In this document: positions 717 through 7,289 of the stretch, piece after piece | How positions within the stretch are numbered: position 1 is the stretch's first letter | Layout of the letters: each line of letters opens with the position of its first letter | DNA from: an uncultured Bacteroidales bacterium | GTDB taxonomy: Bacteria; Bacteroidota; Bacteroidia; Bacteroidales; UBA932 | DNA: 64,000 nt | Direction: 5' to 3' | NCBI GenBank assembly: GCA_900316955.1 | Contig: ONEX01000007.1 | Coordinates: 1 to 64,000, forward strand | Notes under the pieces: generated by a model | Seen by the model: only the letters and a program-made list of their open reading frames with translations | Database searches by the model: none | What the model was told of the DNA's origin: nothing | Program-made: the position numbers and the translations under genes

Positions 717-1769
717 ATGAAGAAGGAGTATATCGTTACTGTCGATGGGAAGCCGGCCGGCCGGGTGGTCGGCCGCGAACGGCTGGGGGAGATCGCCCCG
801 CTGGTGGCGGAAGAGTCGGAAGTGTTCGTCGTTTACGACGCGAACGCGGCGGAGGTGGCGGCCGAGGTGATCGAGGCCGTGCCCGGCGTGCGGGGGAGCA
901 TCGCCCTCGAGACATCCGAGGAGGACAAGTCCATGGACACGGTCCTGCTCATCGAGCGTTCGCTGCTGGAGGCGGGGGCGTCCCGTAAGGCGCTGGTGCT
1001 CGCCGTCGGCGGCGGGATCACGACGGACCTCGCGGGTTTTGCCGCGTCCATCTACAAGCGCGGCGTGCGATATGCCAATGTCCCTACCACCCTGCTTGCC
1101 CAGGTCGATGCAGCCGTAGGCGGCAAGACGGGGGTGAATTTCGACGACTATAAGAACATGCTGGGCGTGATCGTCCAGCCTGTATTCACTTTCGTGTGCG
1201 CGGACGCGCTGCGCACGCTGCCGCGCCGCGATTTCCTGTCGGGGGCGGCGGAGCTGCTGAAGACATTTATTATCGAGAACGAAGACGACCACTACGGCCG
1301 CGCGGTGCGCTGGCTGGCCGAAGGCGGTGCCGCGGCCGAGCTCCAGGAGCTCGCGCTCGCCGCCGCCGGCGTGAAGGCCGCCATCGTCTCGCGCGATCCG
1401 TTCGAGGCCGGCGAACGCCGGAAGCTCAACCTGGGCCACACGTTCGCCCACGCCATCGAGCACGAGGCGCTCCGGCGCGGGGACGACATCACGCACGGCG
1501 AAGCCGTCGCGATGGGCATCGTCCTCGCCGCCCGGCTCTCCGACGCGCTGGGCGTGTCGGCCGGCCTGGAGGCCCGCCTTGCGGCGGATTTCGCCGCCGC
1601 CGGCCTCCCCACGCAGGCCCCCTACCCGGTGGAAACCCTCGCCGGCGCCATGGACAAGGACAAGAAAGCCGAGGGCTCCCTCGTGCACTTCGTCCTTGCC
1701 GAACGCATCGGCTCCGTCCTCATCCGCGACCTGACCGTCGCAGAAGCGCTTAAAGCATTGACATTATGA
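717..1769 (+). CDS. aroB: 3-dehydroquinate synthase
   Basis: Second step of the shikimate pathway: converts DAHP to 3-dehydroquinate using NAD and zinc, in the cytoplasm. The 350 residues are of normal family length. The NAD-binding VGGGITTDLAGF segment is followed by YANVPTTLLAQVDAAVGGKTG, and the zinc ligands are visible as the Glu of GAAELLK, the His of LNLGHTFAH and the His of HGEAVAMG. The ATG at 717 is the first after a strong -7 box. The stop overlaps the next start (ATGA at 1766), so translation is probably coupled to the AroD-AroA fusion. Nothing is missing from the active site. Confidence 0.95.
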   Translation: MKKEYIVTVDGKPAGRVVGRERLGEIAPLVAEESEVFVVYDANAAEVAAEVIEAVPGVRGSIALETSEEDKSMDTVLLIERSLLEAGASRKALVLAVGGGITTDLAGFAASIYKRGVRYANVPTTLLAQVDAAVGGKTGVNFDDYKNMLGVIVQPVFTFVCADALRTLPRRDFLSGAAELLKTFIIENEDDHYGRAVRWLAEGGAAAELQELALAAAGVKAAIVSRDPFEAGERRKLNLGHTFAHAIEHEALRRGDDITHGEAVAMGIVLAARLSDALGVSAGLEARLAADFAAAGLPTQAPYPVETLAGAMDKDKKAEGSLVHFVLAERIGSVLIRDLTVAEALKALTL

Positions 1770-3868
1770 TTTGTACATCCATACAAGGCAAGACGCTGGA
1801 GGAGATCCTCGAGATCCTGGAAAGCGGCGAAGTGGAGATGGCGGAGATCCGGCTGGACCTCTGCGACCTGGATGAGGAGGAGATCGAAGAGCTCTTCACG
1901 CAGTCCGACGTGCCGCTCGTCGCGACGTGCCGGATCGCCAGCCTCGCGCAGCGCGTCGCCGCGGAAGGGGACCCGCTGGACGACGCCGGCCGGGTGCTCT
2001 CCGAGCAGGGACTCTACGCCTCCCAGCCGCGCAAGGGCCGCAATCCGGCCGAAGAACTCGCTGAAAACCAGCTGCTCAAGGCCATCGAGGCCGGCGCCAA
2101 ATACGTGGACCTGGAAGTGGAGGCCCCGCCCATGATGGGCCGCAAGATCCGCCAGGCCTGCCAGGAATACGGCACGATGCTCATCCGCTCGTTCCACGAT
2201 TTCGAAGGAACGCCGCCGGAGGCCACGCTCCTGTCCCTGCTGGAAAAAGGCCGCCGCTTCGGGGGCGAAGTGGTCAAGATCGTGACCACGGCCACCTGCA
2301 AGGCCGATGCGGACCGCGTGATGGCCCTCTACCGGGAGGCCGAGCCCGGCACGCTCGTGGCGTTCTGCATGGGCCCCGAAGGCCGGGAATCCCGGCTGGA
2401 AGCCCTCAAGCAGGGCGCGCCCTTCACCTACGCCTGCCTCACGGCGGAAGAGGCCACGGCCCCCGGCCAGTGGACCGCCGCCGAGATGGACGAGGCCGTG
2501 TACGGCAACTTCCGCTTCATCGGCACGGACGAGACGCTCGAGATGCCGGCGTCCAAGAGCTTCGCGCAGCGGGCGATCGTCGCCGCCGCGCTCGCCCAGG
2601 GCACCTCGCACCTCGCCGGCTATTCCCCCTGCGGGGACAACGAATCGGCCCTCGCCGCCGCCCGGAAACTCGGCGCGCGGGTCGCCGTGAACGGCTCCGA
2701 GCTGGAAATCACCGGCATCGGCGCCTTTGAAAAGTGCCTGACCATCAGCCAGATGCCGGTGGGCGAGTCGGGCTTCCTCACCCGGATGCTCATCCCGGTC
2801 CTGTCGGTTATCGCCGATGGCCCGGTCCGCGTGACGGGCGAGAAGACCCTCCTCGGTCGCCCCCTCGCAGGGGCGCACGACATCATGGCCTCGTTCGGCG
2901 TGAGGCTCGTTCCGGAGAACATTCCGGAAGATAGCCGCAAGGGCGACTGCTTCATCCCCCTGACCGTCAAGGGACCGCTGGTCCCGGGCCGGGCCGACGT
3001 GTCCGGCAAGGGCGGCTCGCAGCTCATCTCCGGTCTGCTGGCGGCCCTCCCGCTCGCCGGGAACCGCTCCACGGTCTATGTCCATGACCCCCGCAGCATC
3101 CCCTACATGTTCATCACCGTGGACGTGCTCCGCAAGTTCGGCATCGAGATCGGCTCGGAGATGGAGGGGGGCGACGATTTCCTGCAGACGCAGGACTGGA
3201 CCCTGTGCTCCGGCCTGACCTTCAAGATGCGCGGCCAGCAGCACTACCGTGCGGCGGACTTCCGCATCGAAGGCGACTGGTCCGGCGCCGCGAACTTCCT
3301 CGTGGCCGGCGCCATCTTCGGCGACGTGGAGGTGGAAGGGCTGGACACCCAGTCTCTCCAGGCCGACATCTCCATCATGGACATCCTCATGGATGCCGGG
3401 GCGAGCATGTCCCAGCTGGAAGGCGACACGCCCACGACCGGGCCCATCCATGTGGCCCGCGCGCCGCTCTGCGCCTTCGAAACGGACCTGAACAACTGCC
3501 CGGACCTCTTCCCGATCGTGGCCGTGCTGGCCGCCTTCTGCCCGGGCGAGAGCCGCATCCGCGGCGTGGAGCGCCTCCGCCACAAGGAGACCGACCGCGC
3601 CGCCGCCATCGTGGACATGCTCACGCAGATGGGCGTTCCCGTCCAGGTCGACGAGGACGAAATGACCATCGAAGGCATGGCCCTCCCGCAGCGTCTCCTC
3701 ACCGGGAACCTGCTCAAGGGCGGCCGGTATACTTCTCACGCCGACCACCGCATGGTGATGGCCCTCAAGGTGGCCGCGCTCGGCGCGGACGGCCCCGTGG
3801 ACATCGACGACACCGCCTGTGTCGCCAAGTCCTTCCCGGGATTCAACGACTTATTTGACAGACTATGA
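1766..3868 (+). CDS. aroDA: Bifunctional 3-dehydroquinate dehydratase / EPSP synthase fusion
   Basis: One 700-residue chain holds two shikimate enzymes. Residues 1-245 are a type I dehydroquinase: H144 in SFHDFEG and the Schiff-base lysine K171 in VVKIVTT match the known catalytic pair, with E27 in AEIRLDL. Compared with typical members there are about 30 extra residues after the CR motif (roughly 64-95). From about 250 the chain is EPSP synthase (AroA): K264 in PASKS, GESGFLTRM, the RHKETDR segment, HADHRMVMAL and a KSFPGF ending. No stop or frameshift separates the halves. It overlaps aroB and aroC by ATGA at each end. The operon thus covers steps 2, 3, 6 and 7; aroE and aroK are not in the window. 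Confidence 0.92.
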   Translation: MICTSIQGKTLEEILEILESGEVEMAEIRLDLCDLDEEEIEELFTQSDVPLVATCRIASLAQRVAAEGDPLDDAGRVLSEQGLYASQPRKGRNPAEELAENQLLKAIEAGAKYVDLEVEAPPMMGRKIRQACQEYGTMLIRSFHDFEGTPPEATLLSLLEKGRRFGGEVVKIVTTATCKADADRVMALYREAEPGTLVAFCMGPEGRESRLEALKQGAPFTYACLTAEEATAPGQWTAAEMDEAVYGNFRFIGTDETLEMPASKSFAQRAIVAAALAQGTSHLAGYSPCGDNESALAAARKLGARVAVNGSELEITGIGAFEKCLTISQMPVGESGFLTRMLIPVLSVIADGPVRVTGEKTLLGRPLAGAHDIMASFGVRLVPENIPEDSRKGDCFIPLTVKGPLVPGRADVSGKGGSQLISGLLAALPLAGNRSTVYVHDPRSIPYMFITVDVLRKFGIEIGSEMEGGDDFLQTQDWTLCSGLTFKMRGQQHYRAADFRIEGDWSGAANFLVAGAIFGDVEVEGLDTQSLQADISIMDILMDAGASMSQLEGDTPTTGPIHVARAPLCAFETDLNNCPDLFPIVAVLAAFCPGESRIRGVERLRHKETDRAAAIVDMLTQMGVPVQVDEDEMTIEGMALPQRLLTGNLLKGGRYTSHADHRMVMALKVAALGADGPVDIDDTACVAKSFPGFNDLFDRL

Positions 3869-5061
3869 ACGCATTTGGTAACATATTCAGAGTAAGCATC
3901 TTCGGCGAGTCGCACGGCGAGCAGATCGGCGTGGTCGTGGACGGCCTCGCGCCGGGCATCCCGCTCAGCGAGGCGGACTTCGCGGCGGACATCGCCCGCC
4001 GCCGGAGCGGCGCGAAGGGCACGACTCCGCGCGTGGAGGCGGATGAGCCGCAGATCCTCAGCGGCGTCTATGAAGGCTATACGACGGGCGCCCCGCTTGC
4101 CATCGTCTTCCACAATACGAACACCCGCAGCCAGGACTACGAGGCCCTGCTGAACGTCCCGCGTCCAGGCCACGCGGACTACACCGCGAACCTCAAGTAC
4201 GGCGGCTTCCAGGATCCGCGCGGCGGCGGCCATTTCTCCGGCCGCCTGACGCTCCCGGTCGTCGCCGCCGGCGTCATCGCGAAGAAACTGCTCTTCGCGA
4301 CCATCGCCGGCGCCACCCGCGGCCGCGTCCAGTTCCGCTGCGACGCGAAGCTCGTCGAGATCGGCGGAATCGCCGACCCGGCGCAGTGGGATGCCGCTTT
4401 GGACCAGGCGCAAAAGGAAGGCGATTCGCTGGGCGGCGTCGTGGAGTGCGTCGTTTCCGGCGTTCCCGCCGGGCTCGGAGAGCCCTTCTGGGACAGCGTG
4501 GAATCCCGCCTCTCGCACGCTCTCTTCGCCATTCCCGGCGTCCGCGGCGTGGAGTTCGGCGACGGCTTTGCCGCTGCCCGGATGAAGGGTTCCGAGCACA
4601 ACGACGTCTATGCCCCCGCCGGCTGCGGCAGCCATGGACACGGCGGCTGCCACGAGCACGGCGCGGACCACGAAGGCTGCTGCCATGAGCACGGCGAAGG
4701 CGAAGGCTGCTGCCACGGCGGCGAAGAGCACGACCACGAAGGCGGCTGCTGCCACGGGGGCGAAGGCCACCACGAGGGCGGCTGCTGCGGCCACCACCGC
4801 AACCACCTGGTGACGCCCGCCACGAATCACGCCGGCGGCGTGAACGGCGGCATCACCAACGGCAATCCGCTGGTGTTCCGCGTCGCTTTCAAGCCCACTT
4901 CCAGCATCGCCAAGGCCCAGGAAACCTACGATTTCGCCAAGGGCGAGATGACGTCTCTGCAGGTCCCCGGCCGGCACGATACATGCTTCGCCTTGCGCAC
5001 GCCGGTCATCGTGGAAGCCATGGCGGCCATCGTCCTGTCGGACCTGGTCGGCATGGCTTAA
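3865..5061 (+). CDS. aroC: Chorismate synthase with a His/Cys-rich insertion
   Basis: Last shikimate step: EPSP to chorismate, using reduced FMN. The N-terminus (GNIFRVSIFGESHGEQIG), RPGHADYT, GGGHFSGRLT, the NHAGGVNGGITNG loop and the C-terminal RHDTCFALRTPVIVEAM are classic. The odd part is residues about 250-313 (4612-4803), between the EHNDVY and NHAGG motifs, where a short loop is usual. It is built of Gly, His, Cys and Glu, with 16 His and 10 Cys, including four CC pairs and repeated GCCHGGE units. This looks metal-binding. The reading frame is intact, and both flanks are normal enzyme sequence. The enzyme assignment is firm; the role of the insert is unknown. Confidence 0.95.
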   Translation: MNAFGNIFRVSIFGESHGEQIGVVVDGLAPGIPLSEADFAADIARRRSGAKGTTPRVEADEPQILSGVYEGYTTGAPLAIVFHNTNTRSQDYEALLNVPRPGHADYTANLKYGGFQDPRGGGHFSGRLTLPVVAAGVIAKKLLFATIAGATRGRVQFRCDAKLVEIGGIADPAQWDAALDQAQKEGDSLGGVVECVVSGVPAGLGEPFWDSVESRLSHALFAIPGVRGVEFGDGFAAARMKGSEHNDVYAPAGCGSHGHGGCHEHGADHEGCCHEHGEGEGCCHGGEEHDHEGGCCHGGEGHHEGGCCGHHRNHLVTPATNHAGGVNGGITNGNPLVFRVAFKPTSSIAKAQETYDFAKGEMTSLQVPGRHDTCFALRTPVIVEAMAAIVLSDLVGMA

Positions 5062-5136
5062 TCGAAATTATCAGGTTTTTACCTGTGATACCCCGGGATT
5101 TCATTGAGAAAAATCGGGGTTTCATTGAATGTTTGG

Positions 5137-5151
5137 CCCCCCCCGGGGGGG
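5137..5151. repeat. C8G7 homopolymer palindrome
   Basis: Eight C (5137-5144) are followed directly by seven G (5145-5151). It lies between aroC and the suf promoter, 6 nt before the TTG of that promoter's -33 box. It may act as a crude terminator for aroC or be prone to slippage. Just upstream, TTTCATTGA occurs twice (about 5099-5128). Confidence 0.6.
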
Positions 5152-5157
5152 CTTGAA

Positions 5158-5189
5158 TTGGAATAATTAAAAAATTTACACTAACTTTG
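5158..5189 (+). promoter_or_regulatory. Promoter of the suf operon
   Basis: TTG at 5158-5160 and TAACTTTG at 5182-5189 are 21 nt apart, the normal Bacteroidetes spacing. The predicted transcript starts near 5195, leaving about 20 nt before the sufB ATG. Confidence 0.65.
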
Positions 5190-5217
5190 TTCAAGTTCGA
5201 CAGGGTTAGTTTTTTTA

Positions 5218-6660
5218 ATGGGCGAAACCGATAGAATTATACAGGAATTCACCTCCGGCGAATACAAGGAAGGATTCGTGACGGACGTGGAGCAGGAATT
5301 CGTTCCCAAAGGTCTGAACGAGGACATCATCCGGACCATTTCCCGACTCAAGGATGAGCCGGAGTGGCTGTTGGAGTTCCGCCTCGACGCCTTCCGGAAA
5401 TGGCAGGCGATGGAAATGCCCCGCTGGCCCCATCTGGACCTCCCTGAAATCGACTTCCAGGACATCATCTACTACGCCGCTCCCAAGAAGGACAAGGACC
5501 GTCCGAAGGAGATCGACCCCAAGCTGGCCGAGACCTTCGAGAAGCTGGGCATTCCCCTCAAGGAGCGCGACGTGCTCGCCGGCGTGGTCGCCGTCGACGC
5601 CGTCTTCGATTCCGTCTCCGTCACGACGACGTTCCGCAAGACGCTTGCGGAGAAGGGCATCATCTTCTGCTCGTTCTCCGAGGCGGTGAAGGAGCATCCG
5701 GACCTGGTGCGCAAGTACCTCGCGTCCGTGGTCCCGGCCGGCGACAACTATTTCGCGGCCCTGAACAGCGCCGTGTTCTCCGACGGATCGTTCTGCTACA
5801 TCCCCAAGGGCGTCCGCTGCCCGATGGACCTGTCCAGCTATTTCCGGATCAATGCGAAAGGCACCGGCCAGTTCGAGCGCACGCTCATCGTGGCCGACGA
5901 GGGCTCTTTCGTGAGCTATATGGAGGGCTGCACCGCGCCGATGCGCGACGAGCAGCAGCTCCACGCCGCGGTGGTGGAGATCATCGTGGAGAAGGATGCC
6001 GACGTCAAATACTCCACCGTCCAGAACTGGTATCCCGGCGACGCGGACGGCAAGGGCGGCATCCTGAACCTCGTCACCAAGCGCGGCATCTGCAAGGGCG
6101 ACGGGGCGCACCTGAGCTGGACCCAGGTGGAAACCGGCTCCGCCATCACCTGGAAGTACCCGTCCACGATCCTCAAGGGCGACAACACCGCCTCGGAGTT
6201 CTATTCCGTCGCGGTCACGAACAACTGCCAGCAGGCCGACACGGGCACCAAGATGATCCACATCGGCCGGAACACCCGTAGCCGGATCGTGTCCAAGGGC
6301 ATTTCCGCGGGCCGCAGCCAGAACAGCTACCGCGGCCTCGTGCGGATGGGCGCCGGCGCGAAGAACGCCCGCAACTACTCCCAGTGCGACAGCCTCCTGA
6401 TCGGCTCCAAGTGCGGGGCCCATACCTTCCCGGTCATCCGCTCCGACAACCCGACGGCCATCGTCGAGCACGAAGCCACGACCTCGAAGATCAGCGAGGA
6501 CCAGCTGTTCTACTGCAACCAGCGCGGCATCGGCCCAGAAGAGGCCGTGGGCCTGATCGTCAACGGCTATGCGCGCGAAGTCCTCTCCCGCCTCCCGATG
6601 GAGTTCGCGGTGGAGGCCCAGAAACTTTTGCAAGTATCCCTTGAAGGCTCGGTCGGATGA
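5218..6660 (+). CDS. sufB: Fe-S cluster assembly scaffold SufB
   Basis: Component of the SufBCD scaffold that builds Fe-S clusters in the cytoplasm. At 480 residues it has normal SufB length. Typical segments are [49 protein letters not shown] and [14 protein letters not shown], followed by [17 protein letters not shown]. The ATG at 5218 is the first after the promoter. The stop overlaps the pnuC start (ATGATG at 6657). SufS and SufE, which supply sulfur, are not in the window. Confidence 0.95.
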
Positions 6661-7289
6661 TGGATTGGATCAATATCGCTTTGTTCGAACTCGGCGGGAA
6701 GCCGGTGCTGCTGGTGGACCTCGTCAGTTCGCTGCTGGGCTTGACGACCGTGTTCCTCGCCGGGCGGAACTCGAAGTACAACTTCTGGGTGGGCTACCTG
6801 TACACGGCCGCCCTGTTCTTCCTGTTCTGGTCCCGGAACCTGTACGCGAACCTGCTGCTCCAGCCCATCTCCCTCGCCATCAACGTGTTCGGCCATTGGC
6901 GCTGGACGCATCCCAAGGCGGAGGAGCGCTCTTCGGAGGACGCGAGCAAGCTGAAGGTCAGCATGCTGACCTGGCCGCAGCGGGGATTCACCGTCGCGGC
7001 GATCCTCGTCATCGCCCTCCTCTGGGGCTGGGTGATGAAGACCTTCTTCCCGGCCAATCCGGCCCCGTACCTGGACTGCTGCGTGACGGTCCTGATCCTC
7101 ACGGCGCAGCTCCTGTCGGCCCTCAAGAAGTGGGACTGCTGGATGGCCTGGCTCATCGTGAACGTCACCCAGATCATCCTCCACGTGAGCGTGGGGAACG
7201 TGTTCATGCCCATCGTCTGCGGCCTGTACCTGGTGAACGGCCTGTGGTCGCTGTATTCCTGGATGAAACTGTACAAGAAAAATGGATAA
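6657..7289 (+). CDS. pnuC: PnuC-family vitamin/nucleoside transporter
   Basis: Inner-membrane protein of 210 residues with about seven hydrophobic segments and the family signature around [15 protein letters not shown]. PnuC relatives import nicotinamide riboside; some Bacteroidetes paralogues carry thiamine or riboflavin instead, and the sequence does not settle which. The gene is inserted between sufB and sufC, overlapping sufB by ATGA and sufC by 8 nt. It is therefore translated as part of the suf operon, an unusual position. No vitamin riboswitch is visible upstream. Confidence 0.8.

Follow-up and report, generated by a model that had tools for sequence, protein, structure and literature searches.

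A long His/Cys-rich loop in the chorismate synthase of gut Bacteroidales as a candidate metal-binding appendage

The DNA analyzed here is a stretch of 64 kb, which we call the window. It contains a chorismate synthase gene (aroC) in one overlapping gene run with aroB and an aroD-aroA fusion. The features of interest are as follows.

717..1769, plus strand: aroB, 3-dehydroquinate synthase, upstream of aroC in the same overlapping gene run
1766..3868, plus strand: aroD-aroA fusion (type I dehydroquinase and EPSP synthase), with a 4-base overlap with aroC
3865..5061, plus strand: aroC, chorismate synthase, 398 residues in one open frame, conserved motifs kept
4606..4833, plus strand: the loop from GSEHND (residues 242-247) to the GG of TNHAGG; residues 248-323, 76 residues
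4624..4803, plus strand: the His/Cys-rich insert, approximately residues 254-313; 60 residues, of which 15 are His and 10 are Cys, predicted to be disordered
4678..4683, plus strand: first vicinal Cys pair, C272-C273, in the sequence unit GCCHEHGE
4708..4713, plus strand: second Cys pair, C282-C283, in the sequence unit GCCHGGE
4747..4752, plus strand: third Cys pair, C295-C296, in the sequence unit GCCHGGEGHHEGG
4783..4788, plus strand: fourth Cys pair, C307-C308, in the 3' anchor CCG[RH]H, which resembles the anchor of the larger clade described below
5218..6660, plus strand: sufB-like gene of SUF Fe-S assembly, downstream; a neighbor of aroC with and without the insert

The product of aroC is matched over its full length by the Pfam family Chorismate_synt (PF01264; E 1e-113, 379.9 bits with a cut-off of 27). 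It is also matched by NF003793 (356.3 bits, cut-off 321). A preliminary description of this DNA, made from the letters alone, had pointed to an in-frame His/Cys-rich insertion of about 60 residues between two conserved motifs of AroC. Such an insert is indeed present, at residues 254-313, and it is rich in His, Cys, and acidic residues. The count of 10 Cys given for positions 4612-4803 was also correct, but the count of 16 His was not: there are 15 His among these 64 residues. The 338 residues of the protein outside the 60-residue insert include 9 His and 3 Cys. In all six frames of the 64-kb window, the aroC insert is the sole region with at least 4 His, at least 4 Cys, and at least 13 His+Cys per 60 codons.

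The loop lies between GSEHND and N-x-x-GG-x-x-GG, which are among the most conserved stretches of AroC. An AlphaFold2 model of the window AroC, built with 53 sequences, has a confident core (pLDDT of at least 90 at 243 of 398 residues) and a pLDDT below 50 over residues 254-313; the low-confidence insert is flanked by strands 249-251 and 316-318. The model of L065, a member of the larger clade, gives a similar but less sharp picture. In the two printed alignments with solved structures (5z9a and 7rca), query residues 254-316 are left without any aligned part.

The available text of PMC3509576 describes chorismate synthase as requiring reduced FMN and as having an active-site Asp and an active-site His. 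By our own assignment from sequence, these would be the Asp of GRHD and the His of RPGHAD. Among 53 AroC proteins with long loops, GRHD is present in all 53 and GESH in 52, the exception being a gene cut by a contig end. Exact RPGHAD is found in 49 of the 53 and exact HFSGR in 43. The best reading of these motifs is that the insert-bearing AroC is an otherwise normal and presumably active enzyme that retains the catalytic Asp motif.

Each junction in aroB / aroD-aroA / aroC overlaps by 4 bases, so these genes are probably transcribed together. Of the 49 long-loop loci of at least 3 kb, 48 have aroDA upstream and 30 have sufB downstream, many flanks ending before sufB would be reached. No insert-specific metal gene was seen beside aroC at the 49 long-loop loci. 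As aroDA and sufB flank many short-loop aroC genes too, the neighborhood gives no insert-specific clue to a metal.

The gap between aroC and sufB (5062-5217) contains a tract of a C-run and a G-run at 5137-5151 and the sequence TAACTTTG at 5182-5189. The latter resembles the Bacteroidetes -7 box, TAnnTTTG, and sufB may therefore have its own promoter. A terminator-like hairpin at 5180-5210 overlaps TAACTTTG; such hairpins are about as frequent in shuffled sequences. Further downstream, a gene for a pnuC-like NMN transporter (6657-7289) lies between the sufB-like gene and one for a sufC-like ABC ATPase and overlaps both, as in several relatives.

The loops of relatives were read by a script, which gave 172 loops (the window's included) from 176 loci. 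The pattern left four loci unread; on later inspection, two of them turned out to have short loops, while the third contains an in-frame stop and the fourth unread bases. We set the threshold for the long His/Cys-rich class ourselves, at 40 residues or more and at least 12 His+Cys. With this threshold 53 loops are long and His/Cys-rich, four are long but His/Cys-poor, and 115 are short. The 53 rich loops correspond to 49 distinct ones; four were obtained from a scan of genome contigs. The short loops have 9-27 residues (12-14 in 85 cases) and three His+Cys at most, and six loops from other families, taken from the first search, all have 14 residues. For the relatives read, this bears out the view that a short loop is normal for chorismate synthases at this place.

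The 53 rich loops are 44-96 residues long (median 64) and have 9-23 His and 5-13 Cys. His makes up 24.2% and Cys 13.2% of their residues, compared to 2.6% and 0.9% in the remainder of the same proteins. Together, His and Cys account for 30-47% of each loop, and their number correlates with loop length (r = 0.82). Vicinal Cys pairs are present at a mean of 3.0 per loop, and C-x-x-C is found in none of the 53 loops.

In the larger clade, the loop usually starts with PFPEHxC and ends with HHCCGRHKRPQPPVTNHAGG (i.e., PFPEHxC ... HHCCGRHK). Between these anchors lie units such as CCHGEHEEGHE and CHHDDPDHE, whose number varies by species. The loop of G338 has no inner units, and its sequence is PFPEHHCCGRHKHPQPPVTNHA. 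The loops expand and contract between the fixed anchors, and their His/Cys density stays high.

Another lineage of the genus has loops of 59-70 residues at the same site that are unrelated and His/Cys-poor (L004, L056, and L170; L062 repeats L056). Those of L004 and L056 contain GAERSEASGGAERSEASERP-like sequence, which is possibly another dispersed repeat.

A genome-wide habit of low complexity was also considered as a source of the insert. The codon pattern CCH[GDE]E has 28 matches in 16 insert-bearing genomes, 18 of them within aroC loops. The other 10 matches lie outside repeated His/Cys units; one of them, in L206, lies in a stretch of 75 codons with 8 His and 7 Cys. The exact pattern has no aroC match in G000 (the genome of the window), G003, and G389. 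A looser pattern gives two matches in aroC of G000 and two elsewhere, the latter not being His/Cys-rich. By the CCH[GDE]E pattern, which misses some His/Cys-rich frames, there is no sign of a genome-wide habit.

The nearest records with the same or nearly the same insert are metagenome-assembled genomes of Bacteroidales or Bacteroidia, namely RUG13040, RUG193, and RGIG6537 (sheep reticulum). The recurrence of the insert in many species and in these separately named assemblies rules out an artefact of a single assembly, a possibility raised in the preliminary description. The record of one more distant relative is labelled Candidatus Cryptobacteroides, and we infer that the surveyed genus is the Candidatus Cryptobacteroides group.

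A search with the whole protein gave a match in 373 of the 400 genomes of this genus (gut and rumen Bacteroidales). The profile A2, which covers the loop with its anchors and was built from 31 sequences, matched 62 of the 400. Seven of these matches (G093, G240, G255, G297, G318, G330, and G359) cover only the 3' flank, with E values of about 1e-7; these seven genomes have a 21-residue loop and are sisters of the window's clade. After their removal, 55 of the 400 genomes have a His/Cys loop, long or contracted. It is long in 52 of them (49 determined by script; L057, L243, and L245 by eye), contracted in two (22 residues in G338 and 32 in G078), and has unread bases in one. The loop of L243, with 41 residues, is in a truncated gene. 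In L057 there is an in-frame TAG inside the His/Cys loop, and in L245 the N-terminal part and the loop are in different frames, with an apparent frameshift upstream of the loop; each could be a sequencing error or a broken gene.

Profile A2 matched one of 393 genomes (206 genera) in the order and one of 395 (171 genera) in the phylum, in both cases the window's own; these sets contain few genomes of the same genus and family. Within the genus, the loop is shrunken or missing not only in G338 and G078, but also in L009 and L175 (13-14 residues) and in sisters of the window clade (19-21 residues). It is thus dispensable in some lineages.

On trees of AroC without the loop, the long loops fall into two groups, one of 7 rows that includes the window and one of 42 rows; the deeper forks are weakly supported. 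A single clade of all long loops was not rejected by the approximately-unbiased test (p 0.173). Sisters of the window group have loops such as CFTPDGIDGHEGLVTPATNHA. A string of 18 residues, CCHGGEGHHEGGCCG[RH]HR, is common to the window and to L036 from the larger clade, with 17 matches and partly different codons. Judging from the sequences, we lean towards one origin with later losses and contractions, rather than two.

At the sequence level, a clean marker of the larger clade (e.g., L036, L037, and L054) is a deletion that removes about 14 residues following KPT[SA]SIAK (around QETYDFAKGEMTSLQV in the window). It accompanies all 44 long loops of this clade and is also found in two short-loop relatives, L009 and L175. 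The deletion is absent with all 9 long loops of the window group, all 4 other long loops, and 105 short loops; eight short-loop rows were outside the pattern and were left unscored.

A repeat with the core CATTCTGAGCGCAGCGAAGAATC is scattered through many of these genomes, and copies of it (up to five substitutions) are found inside 12 loops, all of the larger clade. These are not 12 independent events, because some copies are shared by descent. By a 25-base pattern with up to two mismatches, 12 genomes contain from 0 to 87 copies of the repeat, with none in G389 and G093. All 12 loop copies read as (C)HSERSEESH. Four frames of the repeat are open, and this is the only one to encode Cys as well as His; a single copy has Gln at the His codon. 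The window's own insert showed no such copy; its genome, G000, has only three.

Selection was assessed in five species of the window clade with 76-residue loops (L001, L002, L031, L032, and L033). In the insert, 25 variable codons have only synonymous changes and four have nonsynonymous ones; in the rest of aroC of the same species these numbers are 87 and 16. The neutral expectation is 71-81% nonsynonymous (transition/transversion weights 8 to 1), which gives binomial p values of 2.3e-10 to 9e-15; they are nominal, because the five rows share ancestry, but the direction is plain. The insert does not differ from the rest of the gene (Fisher p 1.0), and two of its four nonsynonymous changes hit His, which is replaced by Gln or Asn. 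The insert of the window clade is under purifying selection and is constrained like the remainder of the enzyme. Purifying selection on amino acids does not by itself point to a particular function. For pairs from the larger clade, where the alignment is uncertain, the omega of the loop is scattered from about 0.01 to 0.46 where computable, compared to 0.04-0.27 before the loop, and it sometimes exceeds that of the enzyme. Taken over the relatives, the conservation that the preliminary description had proposed to look for is present: the insert is conserved in a clade, with His and Cys retained while the length varies.

We give about an even chance to the reading in which an otherwise normal, active chorismate synthase carries the insert as an expressed, disordered appendage that binds transition metals and so buffers or stores them. 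The composition of the insert does resemble that of known metal-binding appendages, as had been suggested from the start. The insert would be translated as part of AroC. Its His/Cys units would bind at least one metal ion of the soft or borderline class, most likely Zn or Ni, and the metal-loaded insert would buffer or store ions in the cytosol on a housekeeping enzyme, in the style of the HspA tail. Catalysis would proceed independently of the loop, because relatives manage without it and the conserved motifs are kept. The larger clade keeps the density of ligands rather than their exact position, so buffering at multiple sites fits better than one structured site.

Several other readings have to be weighed against this one. 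The metal bound by the loop could alter the activity or assembly of the enzyme, i.e., the loop could be a metal-gated or metal-stabilized lid through which metal status controls aromatic synthesis. The placement of the loop between highly conserved stretches suits a lid, the deletion seen in the larger clade with each of its 44 long loops indicates that the enzyme was remodelled nearby in sequence, and a metal-dependent enzyme is the product of aroB, which belongs to the same run of overlapping genes. We nevertheless regard a lid as unlikely, since loop and deletion do not always go together (all 9 window-clade sequences have only the former, and two short-loop relatives only the latter), and a length that ranges from 22 to 96 residues is hard to reconcile with a precise gate. 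Alternatively, the vicinal Cys pairs could form a thiol/disulfide or redox element that senses or protects the reduced state needed by an enzyme with reduced FMN (PMC3509576, in its available text). The mean of 3.0 CC pairs in the 53 loops agrees with this, and the two neighboring Cys pairs of HspA are described in the available text of PMC5116745 as forming two disulfides. A pure thiol switch does not need His, which exceeds Cys in the loops (24% versus 13%), and C-x-x-C is missing from all 53. In hosts that are presumably strict anaerobes, oxidation would be rare. A redox element is distinctly unlikely in our opinion.

The loop could also have no function and be the result of near-neutral expansion in a place tolerant to insertions, where dispersed repeats land in frame. 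The long unrelated His/Cys-poor loops of L004, L056, and L170 at the same place, the repeat copies inside 12 loops, and the omega of up to 0.46 in some pairs of the larger clade are in line with it, as are the in-frame palindromic insertions described for Wolbachia genes in the available text of PMC4224334. We see only a small chance for such an origin without function. His/Cys density survives large changes in length, 12 of 12 repeat copies are in the Cys/His frame, and the repeat is nearly absent from the two window-clade genomes tested (three copies in G000, none in G389). In the window's clade, neutral growth is disfavored by the selection result, with the insert as constrained as the enzyme (Fisher p 1.0).

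The last reading is a dedicated nickel store for HypA/HypB-dependent enzymes, which would substitute for the missing His-rich region of HypB. In the genome of the window, genes for HypA, a large Fe-S/pyridine-nucleotide oxidoreductase, and a HypB/CobW-family protein lie in a row (L246:9282-13132, contig C23 of G000), and the HypB-family protein of this genome has no His-rich stretch. In genomes hand-picked mostly by completeness, with one sub-cut-off match scored as absent, HypA (PF01155) was found in 37 of 51 long-loop genomes (19/24 and 18/27) versus 17 of 59 non-loop genomes beyond the near relatives; the initial comparison gave 19 of 24 versus 6 of 24. The loop genomes are less complete, so the bias runs against the association. 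HypA is also present in all four of G338, G078, G406, and G413, which have contracted, shorter, or partly unread loops. However, it is present in 6 of 6 loop-less near relatives of the larger clade (the loops of G172 and G241 being unread) and in 3 of 8 window-clade sisters with 19-21-residue loops, and it is missing from 14 of the 51 loop genomes, including G208 with a completeness of 96%. A tree of 66 rows, two of which stand in for genomes with an identical core, contains only 2-3 independent pairs, which do not suffice for a test, and ancestry can therefore explain the association. Searches for the urease alpha subunit (PF00449) in 48 genomes and for the large subunit of NiFe-hydrogenase (PF00374) in 42 genomes gave no match, also in the genome of the window, with control genomes positive; neither of the enzymes that usually explain a nickel store was thus seen. 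We consider a dedicated nickel store highly improbable. As the metal of the preferred buffering appendage, nickel is possible but is not supported over zinc.

A bolder proposal, which we find rather unlikely, is that AroC reads metal status. By binding Zn or Ni, the loop would set the output of chorismate and hence of aromatic amino acids and quinone precursors. The shikimate pathway would thereby have acquired a point of control by metal in a single genus, partly via a dispersed repeat tamed into ligand-coding units.

A central flavoenzyme is the carrier of a constrained, length-variable His/Cys segment in one large and mostly uncultured gut genus. Should this segment bind metal, rumen bacteria would buffer or control metal at a place where one would not look for it, namely aroC. 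With natural loops of 22-96 residues, the genus would offer a graded set in which to study the evolution of disordered metal-binding segments out of repeats. In its frame bias, the repeat also gives a tangible example of how dispersed copies can contribute new protein sequence.

Among the matches listed in a literature search, titles and abstract openings contain no description of such a loop in chorismate synthase. By sequence, the window AroC belongs to the same family as the chorismate synthases with solved structures (PF01264; 5z9a, 1um0, and 4lj2) and shares their conserved motifs. In the alignments with 5z9a and 7rca, residues 254-316 have no counterpart. Apicomplexan chorismate synthases also have internal insertions.

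Flexible His-rich regions that store or pass on metals are known from HypB, UreE, and SlyD. These regions, like that of Hpn, are on nickel maturation factors or stand-alone proteins. In Hpn the His-rich stretch serves for metal storage or transfer (PMC4671568, available text). In contrast, the AroC carrier is a shikimate-pathway enzyme, and Cys makes up a large share of the putative ligands.

In-frame insertions of palindromic repeats are known from Rickettsia (RPE). In Wolbachia, copies of the dispersed repeat WPE are located inside open frames and leave them unbroken, according to the available text of PMC4224334. The 12 AroC loops with a repeat copy in the open frame are similar. Unlike WPE, the copies form only a part of some loops, are in one Cys/His frame, and were not found in the window's insert.

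The nearest analogue is GroES/HspA of Helicobacter pylori. Its domain B contains 8 His along with 4 Cys, and each monomer binds two Ni (PMC5116745 and PMC4671568, available text). HspA has a short C-terminal extension on a chaperonin, while AroC has an internal loop of 44-96 residues (53 sequences) in a flavoenzyme. The host of HspA has urease and NiFe-hydrogenase. The AroC loop changes its length between species. In both cases a housekeeping protein carries a lineage-restricted His/Cys-rich stretch with neighboring Cys pairs. The likeness of the AroC loop to HspA lies in composition, predicted flexibility, and lineage restriction.
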